DNA of 26,902 bases from a virus. Shown in pieces: positions 2,441 through 4,058 of this stretch. The stretch spans positions 1 through 26,902 of the IMG/VR virus record IMGVR_UViG_3300021440_000101; one strand, 5' to 3'. Both the position numbers and the translations under genes were made by a program. How positions within the stretch are numbered: position 1 is the first letter of the stretch; each line of letters starts with the position of its first letter. Below the pieces are notes generated by a model that was not told the DNA's origin, did not search any database, and worked only from the letters and a program-made list of their open reading frames with translations.

Positions 2441-2568
2441 TGGGTAATCTCAACGAGTCACACGCACATTTTCATCTCCTTATTGTATAGAGGGCTTACG
2501 AGTTACCCACCCGTTTGGGCTGATGTTATGTAACCGATGTCAGCCCACATACAAAAGAAAGGTTACAT
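2441..2568 (+). promoter_or_regulatory. Structured groEL leader with possible pseudoknot over the ribosome binding site
   Basis: Two paired elements are visible. First, TGGGTAA-t-CTC (2441-2451) pairs with GAGTTACCCA (2500-2509). Second, a hairpin pairs 2516-2527 with 2536-2547: eight Watson-Crick pairs (TGGGCTGA/TCAGCCCA) extended by four weaker ones. Its eight-base loop ATGTAACC (2528-2535) is the exact complement of GGTTACAT (2561-2568), which covers the GG of the groEL Shine-Dalgarno and ends one base before the ATG. Loop-to-site pairing would form an H-type pseudoknot and hide the start. The 13-base linker (2548-2560) could span the stem. This is a prediction from sequence only. Confidence 0.5.
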
Positions 2569-2569
2569 C

Positions 2570-3844
2570 ATGCAAAAACAAATTATAAAGCAAATCAAAG
2601 ATGCTGTTCGGGTTATCGGTTCAACACTTGGCCCAAATGGCAAGTTGGTAGCAATTACCAACGAAAACCCAAATACGCATAAAGCAGAAACCGTTTTAAC
2701 CAAAGACGGTTATAAGGTATCGCAGAACATAAAAGATATGTCTGCTGGTGCTAACTTTGTTCGACAGGTTTGCAAACGTCAAGTTCGGGAAGTCGGTGAC
2801 GGCACGACATCTGTGGCTGTATTGTTGGCACATTTGATAGATTATTCATTGAAAGACCTGTATGCGTTGCAGTTGCAAGAAAAAGCATTAAAAGAGCATT
2901 TGGACAAGGTTGCTGTTAAAAAGATAGATTACAAATCACTTTATAATTTGGCAATGGTGTCCAGTAATGGCGATACAAATATATCATCTGTGGTTGCAGA
3001 TGTTGTTGGTCGCAATGGTAAAGACGGACATTACATTGTTGAAGAACGTGATCAAGACGGCATAACCAGTGAACAGATTAAAGGTTATGTTCTGGACAGT
3101 GGATACACTAACCAAGCATTTGTGAACACAAAAACTGGTGTTGAAATGATTGACCCGGTTGTGTTGGTAAAAGAATATATTTCGCTGAAAGACATAGCGG
3201 AAGTAGCAAGTGAAGCGATAAAGGCCGGAAAGCCGTTTTTATGCATTGGACAATGTGATGAACAGGCATTGTCGTCATTGGTTGCAAACCATTTGAACGG
3301 CACAGGGCAATTTTGCAATGTGACATTTACTGCGATTGGGAATAAACGTTCTGATTTGGTGGCGGATTTGACAGTATTAGCACCGCATATCAAAAAAGCA
3401 CACATTACCAGACGTATGGCCACATTTGAATACAGCGACAACAGCGAAATAAAAACATTATGCAAAGCGATTGAAAACGAAAGCAAGACGTTATCTGGTA
3501 GTGAAAAAGCATGGTGCAAAGAACGTTTGGCGCGTTTGGAAAGCAAGATTGCAAAGATATATGTAGGTGCTGAAACGACATCGCAGATGGTAGAATTAAA
3601 AGACCGTTTGGAAGACGCAATTTTGGCAGTTATACAAGGATTTGATGGTTACGTTAAGGGTGCTGGGCAGGCATTAGCAGATTTTGCGCCTACCAAGCAC
3701 AAGGTATGGCAGGTTATACGCAATGCTGTTGGTATTAAATACGTGCCAGATACGGTTATTGAACCGGTTAATTTGGTATATCAAGTGTTTAAGACAGCGG
3801 TAGAACAGGCAATTTTAATCAAAAGGACATGCCATGCAATATAA
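2570..3844 (+). CDS. groEL: GroEL-like chaperonin (compact, 424 aa)
   Basis: Clear group I chaperonin. The ATP-site landmarks are LGPNGK (20-25), TKDG with D46 (GroEL D52), GDGTT (76-80, D77 = GroEL D87), D349 in LKDRLEDA (GroEL D398) and KGAG (363-366, in place of GGG). All catalytic aspartates are kept, so ATP hydrolysis is likely. The protein has 424 residues against about 548. The N-terminus is about 10 residues shorter, the apical/intermediate region is reduced, the C-terminal equatorial part after KGAG has only 58 residues, and the GGM tail is missing. The start at 2570, not the in-frame 2537, is supported by AAAGG nine to twelve bases upstream. It overlaps the GroES-like gene by 11 bases. 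It probably folds a phage structural protein. Confidence 0.93.
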   Translation: MQKQIIKQIKDAVRVIGSTLGPNGKLVAITNENPNTHKAETVLTKDGYKVSQNIKDMSAGANFVRQVCKRQVREVGDGTTSVAVLLAHLIDYSLKDLYALQLQEKALKEHLDKVAVKKIDYKSLYNLAMVSSNGDTNISSVVADVVGRNGKDGHYIVEERDQDGITSEQIKGYVLDSGYTNQAFVNTKTGVEMIDPVVLVKEYISLKDIAEVASEAIKAGKPFLCIGQCDEQALSSLVANHLNGTGQFCNVTFTAIGNKRSDLVADLTVLAPHIKKAHITRRMATFEYSDNSEIKTLCKAIENESKTLSGSEKAWCKERLARLESKIAKIYVGAETTSQMVELKDRLEDAILAVIQGFDGYVKGAGQALADFAPTKHKVWQVIRNAVGIKYVPDTVIEPVNLVYQVFKTAVEQAILIKRTCHAI

Positions 3845-4058
3845 GGTTTTAAGAGATTTGGTGCAGATAGAGATATTACCAGATGCGGATGCGTTTGATG
3901 TATCTGATTTGCAATTCGCAAAGGTTATTGCCAAAGGCGATAAATGCGGAAAGGAATATAATGTTGGCGACATTGTGGGTTTTATAAAAAAGACCGCATA
4001 TGTTGGCGATGGCATTACATTTATCTTTGATGACAATGTTTTAATGGTGCGTAAATGA
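3834..4058 (+). CDS. groES: GroES-like co-chaperonin
   Basis: This 74-residue protein aligns by eye along most of GroES (about 97 residues): YKVLRDLVQIEI matches the first strand region, AKVIAKGDK matches GEVLAVG, YNVGDIVGF matches VKVGDIVIF, and the ending DDNVLMV matches NEEVLIM. It would cap the chaperonin ring. The mobile loop, which in GroES carries the hydrophobic IVL contact with GroEL, is shortened to an acidic stretch (LPDADAFDVSD) without that motif. The start lies inside the end of groEL, with AAAAGGAC upstream. The order is EL then ES, the reverse of bacterial operons. The position next to groEL supports the call. Confidence 0.75.
   Translation: MQYKVLRDLVQIEILPDADAFDVSDLQFAKVIAKGDKCGKEYNVGDIVGFIKKTAYVGDGITFIFDDNVLMVRK

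Follow-up and report, generated by a model that had tools for sequence, protein, structure and literature searches.

What could it mean for a phage that the loop of a hairpin in its mRNA leader matches, base for base, the start of the chaperonin gene behind it? The question is raised by the IMG/VR virus record IMGVR_UViG_3300021440_000101, whose positions 1 to 26,902 (the window, the whole stretch of DNA that was analysed) hold a groEL-like chaperonin gene of 424 amino acids (aa) at 2570-3844, on the plus strand like the promoter, terminator and leader elements located below. The gene was recognized by Pfam, PHROG and solved-structure profile matches, and those to Pfam Cpn60_TCP1 (E 1.2e-18) and PHROG chaperonin groEL (E 9.6e-55) lie above cut-off, identifying a phage-encoded GroEL (Cpn60). 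Upstream of it stands the hairpin P2, supported by direct reading, folding and comparison of relatives, in which TGGGCTGATGTT (2516-2527) pairs with GATGTCAGCCCA (2536-2547) through 12 pairs, three of them G-U. The loop of P2, the putative anti-start sequence ATGTAACC (2528-2535), has its exact reverse complement GGTTACAT at 2561-2568, beyond a linker of 13 nucleotides (nt; 2548-2560) and separated from the groEL ATG (2570-2572) by C2569. The Shine-Dalgarno (SD) sequence AAAGG occupies 2558-2562, and its GG forms the start of GGTTACAT. A preliminary description of this DNA had placed stem, loop, complement and linker correctly to the base, and direct reading also bears out its statement that the loop complement contains the GG of the groEL SD and ends one base before the ATG. 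An in-frame ATG at 2537 was considered as the true groEL start and rejected; it lies inside P2, and the equivalent frame in the related leader L005 stops before groEL.

Such an arrangement is rare in the window. P2 is its only hairpin of at least 10 base pairs (bp) with an 8-nt loop complement within 45 nt, the expectation from shuffled strands being 0.017 each. From the window sequence alone, the match between the loop and the translation initiation region (TIR; SD, spacer or start codon) has a p of 0.001-0.003, and the word GGTTACAT occurs four times with both strands counted, where 1.5 occurrences are expected.

Related groEL leaders were taken from phage contigs and metagenome-assembled genomes via GroEL searches, which yielded L005, L007, L004, L002, L011, L009 and L010 (L003 is the L002 leader in another sample); terminase, alignment, order-level and class-level searches found no further leaders. 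The relatives in metagenome-assembled genomes come from gut alphaproteobacteria with genomes of ~0.8-1.0 Mb. A scan of viral contigs for TGTAACC-gap-AAGGTTACA was too loose and was set aside, as the matches listed look like chance. L001 and L007 belong to one contig, IMGVR_UViG_3300037400_001975 (34.4 kb), with overlapping groEL parts at both ends, which points to a probably complete genome that was assembled as a circle.

In six distinct leaders from three clades, the P2 loop is complementary over 7-12 bp to the groEL initiation region of its own leader, with loops that differ among clades (ATGTAACC, GTGTAACC, AUAACCC, UUCAUGGGUU and UUUGUUGGGUU). The pairing spans 8 bp in the window and L005, 7 in L007, 12 in L011 (with an internal loop and a bulge), 10 in L004 (one G-U) and 11 in L002 (two G-U). 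By complementarity, all six loops could thus pair with a strand that overlaps the ribosome binding site (RBS) or start, as in H-type pseudoknot translational operators. Stem and loop of L005 and L007 align directly with those of the window, and this alignment displays compensated exchanges at three stem pairs (C-G/G-C, U-A/C-G and A-U/G-C) as well as a change of the outer pseudoknot pair from A-U to G-C in L005. Over stem and pseudoknot together, 98.3% of cells are paired, a value reached by 8 of 500 shuffles, with sliding controls at 33-47%. The hairpin and loop of L011, L004 and L002 are of different sequence, and the loop is again complementary to its own start region, through GGUGUUAU plus GAGCA over the start in L011, AGCCCAUGAA in L004 and AACCCAAUGAA in L002. 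These clade-specific sets of loop and TIR, along with the three stem pairs and one pseudoknot pair changed on both sides, are the covariation that an H-type operator should leave. A table of cross-energies is nearly block-diagonal, the loops fitting the TIR of their own clade and mostly that of no other. Loops of the window, L005 and L007 reach -8.8 to -13.2 kcal/mol with their own TIRs and -1 to -2 kcal/mol with those of L004 and L002, whose loops reach -10 to -17 kcal/mol within their clade; the L011 loop is an exception, as it also fits the window TIR (-12.7 kcal/mol).

Shuffle p-values combined by Fisher's method come to 7e-7 over the six leaders and to 1.2e-5 with one leader for each of four lineages. 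Complementarity by chance, with no function, could still draw on the shortness of the sequences, the small sample and two relatives without the pseudoknot. The coordinated replacement of loop and TIR already makes this unlikely, and given the low expectation per strand, the compensatory changes and a combined p of ~1e-5 across lineages, we regard it as highly improbable. The preliminary description had proposed an H-type pseudoknot that hides the groEL start, to be refuted if loop and RBS varied without compensation. We found the opposite when its covariation check was run, with compensatory changes in both the stem and the loop/RBS pair. Since loop and start vary together in six leaders, pairing over the groEL start is well supported, and this part of the proposal stands; that the pairing represses translation is the part that we can only infer, and L009 and L010 are without the pseudoknot.

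In the local nested fold, P2 has a pair probability of 0.99 and the RBS is mostly open, indicating that the pseudoknot would be what hides the RBS. The free energy of the pseudoknot is favourable, at -3 to -9 kcal/mol on a rough estimate with assumed penalty constants.

The loop has a further possible partner. Five leaders (window, L005, L007, L004 and L002) carry a second exact loop complement elsewhere in the transcript. By word search and comparison of relatives, it lies at 2354-2361 in the window (again GGTTACAT), at 2765-2772 in L005 and at 2780-2787 in L007, embedded in AAAGGTTACAT/C close to the transcript's 5' end. L005 and L007 have GGTTACAC at the equivalent place, the last base tracking their changed loop, and the presence of an exact copy in these three leaders has a p of 0.003-0.012. 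The copy of the window stands between a sigma-70-like promoter (TTGCAA-16-TATACT, 2293-2320) and an intrinsic terminator (2412-2439). The promoter, likely the start of the groEL transcript, matches the consensus at 9/12 positions and is conserved in position in L005, L007 and L011, although the number of sites in the consensus scan is not above chance by itself; the terminator was found by scan, and relatives show a terminator-like hairpin and T run at the equivalent place. In L004 and L002 the second complement is located between P2 and the SD, 24-37 nt 5' of the ATG, and fits the loop about as well as the start does. L011 has a structured candidate only. All five second sites are transcribed ahead of the start codon. 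With a partner outside the start, the loop may choose between two pairings instead of forming a simple lock; in this small sample, that hints at a two-state switch in which the copy may compete with the RBS for the loop.

The same copy could act in trans, with the promoter-to-terminator RNA (~110 nt, carrying AAAGGTTACAT) binding the P2 loop and freeing the RBS as an activating small RNA. This would agree with the way the terminated-region copy tracks the loop (GGTTACAT with ATGTAACC; GGTTACAC with GTGTAACC in L005 and L007), with the L007 copy fitting the loop better than the L007 RBS does, and with the conservation of promoter and terminator around the copy. However, the promoter-terminator region of L004, L002 and L011 holds no exact copy, the same copy is present in cis on the full-length transcript, and its GGTT is predicted to be paired in the fold of a longer transcript, so that we consider a small RNA of this kind unlikely. 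A broader version of the switch, which appears doubtful to us, would use one pairing unit three times over: as the groEL start, as the anti-start loop and as a mimic of the start on the short terminated leader RNA. By capturing the loop, whether in cis or in trans, the mimic would tie chaperonin synthesis to late transcription.

We therefore favour, as the probable explanation, a cis-acting two-state pseudoknot lock that closes the groEL start and is opened by capture of the loop elsewhere or by a trans factor. The groEL leader would act as a structured RNA in which the P2 loop pairs with the TIR into an H-type pseudoknot, a pairing backed by covariation, and this pseudoknot would keep 30S subunits off groEL, much as an RBS-occluding pseudoknot operator works. 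Alternatively, a TIR-like copy, situated close to the 5' end in the clade of the window and between P2 and the RBS in that of L004 and L002, would capture the loop and leave the RBS free. The balance might be set by the order of folding during transcription, by ribosome traffic, by a protein of phage or host, or by the short terminated RNA from the leader. Such a lock would limit or delay GroEL, whose gene heads the late operon, and perhaps also a co-chaperonin, by way of the overlapping gene that follows at 3834-4058.

A protein might also be the primary actor, recognizing the pseudoknot and setting repression autogenously, as for T4 gene 32 and ribosomal protein S15. There is precedent in T4, where gp32 binds to a pseudoknot in the leader of its own mRNA (PMC3014915), and P1 (a long-range helix upstream of P2), P2 and the pseudoknot make up a compact structured leader. 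The window, L005 and L007 also agree in every base of the wobble-rich P2 top (UGUU/GAUG). Between clades, however, loop and stem are replaced by other sequences, a pattern more in keeping with pure base pairing than with recognition by a sequence-specific protein, and no candidate protein was identified; a protein operator is in our view improbable.

Several observations weigh against the two-state lock. Two divergent leaders, L009 and L010, show no loop/TIR pseudoknot; L009 (2809-2992) keeps P1, and in place of P2 it has a hairpin system, GTTGTTGGTTG/CAACCAACAAC, with no match between loop and start. The outer pseudoknot pair is lost in L007, and L002 on its own is weak (shuffle p 0.15). The sequences are few and fall into three clades, and the loop of the window, L005 and L007 is mostly shared by descent. 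A nested alternative fold beats P2 in L004, and with 100 nt of coding sequence the nested minimum free energy structure of the window drops P2 (-61.2 vs -57.9 kcal/mol with P2 forced); P2 is kept in such folds of L005, L007 and L011. The second complement of the window, at 2354, might be a relic. Finally, the best loop complement in L004 and L002 lies upstream of the RBS, though the start is complementary too. If this strongest complement were the one used, the RBS would be left uncovered, and the pairing might be real with a role other than repression. A pseudoknot upstream of the RBS could activate translation or act as a standby structure, or the pairing could bear on processing or stability of the mRNA or on attenuation during transcription; a terminator directly precedes the element. 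A start region complementary to the loop in 6/6 leaders speaks against such roles, which we hold to be quite improbable.

The remainder of the leader is structured as well. Helix P1 (2441-2451 with 2500-2509), with an inner P1b (2455-2459 with 2493-2497), was seen in folds and relatives; this long-range helix between terminator and P2 is paired in 7/7 leaders despite quite different sequences. It shows 2-7 changes on both sides per comparison over the seven leaders, and P1b is present in four; P1 could not be aligned across clades with MAFFT, and these pairs were counted on strands located by hand, a procedure biased towards structure. The covarying P1, the second loop complement and the promoter-terminator layout are additions to the elements described before. 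The apical loop of P1 contains CTCCTT (2476-2481), with a CUCCUU-like tract in relatives, and a predicted hairpin at 2370-2411 bears the anti-SD-like GCCTCC (2386-2391) in its loop, TGCCTCC being conserved in L005, L007 and L011. Both tracts are kept in relatives and recall alphaproteobacterial anti-SD small RNAs. A minus-strand mini-open reading frame (ORF) in the P1 loop (AAGGAG...ATGAAAATG) was dropped, as its frame differs or is absent in relatives (MKMCV-stop in the window, no start in L004). Just 3' of the -10 element, an imperfect palindrome at 2327-2350, an operator or 5' hairpin judged by relatives and fold, reads ATACTAGCAATAGTAT in L005, L007 and L011; it occurs once each in the L005 and L007 records, where no further copy was found. 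Upstream of the promoter, TTGAATCGGATA (2271-2282) is conserved, and this element and the palindrome are probable regulator sites of the promoter.

The late genes beyond the leader comprise groEL, the small gene that overlaps its end, terminase and portal. In lambda, the short RNA from pR' is terminated at tR' unless polymerase reads on into the late genes, a layout that the promoter, palindrome, GCCTCC hairpin and terminator of the window resemble. The GroEL of the window has 424 residues vs ~548 in E. coli, and the profile match to solved GroEL chains extends no further than their residue ~420-460. The 74-aa ORF at 3834-4058 overlaps the end of groEL and looks by eye like a short GroES; it has no Pfam, PHROG or PDB match.

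Comparison with known RNA elements places the groEL leader near several classes. Rfam covariance-model scans gave no match at gathering score, the best hit (E 0.63) scoring far below the thresholds. The preQ1-II, SAM-II and SAM-V riboswitches are small H-type pseudoknots with the 3' strand at the SD, a feature shared by the groEL leader. No conserved ligand-binding core was seen in the latter, however, and its loop and stem change completely from one clade to another. RNA thermometers of groE and other heat-shock genes (ROSE, fourU) likewise cover the SD of chaperone genes with RNA structure, in the form of imperfect hairpins, whereas the groEL leader would use a pseudoknot, and a role for temperature is not expected in gut phages. 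The loop/TIR duplex weakens only from -8.8 kcal/mol at 37 °C to -7.3 kcal/mol at 45 °C in a rough calculation. A thermosensor seems unlikely in phages of gut and rumen alphaproteobacteria. Leaders of ribosomal proteins (rpsO/S15, alpha operon/S4) carry RBS-overlapping pseudoknots as translational operators. The groEL leader would have such a pseudoknot in common with them (rpsO/S15 also appears in PMC3014915) and belongs to a different gene class. Gene 32 of T4, T2 and RB69 likewise has a phage mRNA with a leader pseudoknot upstream of the start codon, one that is variable among relatives and absent in RB49 (PMC3014915). That pseudoknot lies 67 nt upstream and nucleates gp32 binding (PMC3014915). 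In operators of this type the encoded protein attaches to the pseudoknot and nucleates on an A+U-rich tract over the RBS, whereas here the pseudoknot itself would contain the SD and start region, and the product is a GroEL-like chaperonin, not a single-strand binding protein.

No comparable leader of a phage groEL turned up in our literature search, from which most subscription papers were missing. Several phages encode their own chaperonin, and how its dose is set appears not to have been described within the literature searched. A 2010 review considered that T4 gene 32 might be the sole case of a viral pseudoknot that serves translational autoregulation (PMC3014915), and the groEL pseudoknot would extend this very short list. 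Its covariation makes it directly testable by reporter. If true, it would provide a clear example of a phage chaperonin controlled by RNA, in which loop and start have been replaced together between clades.
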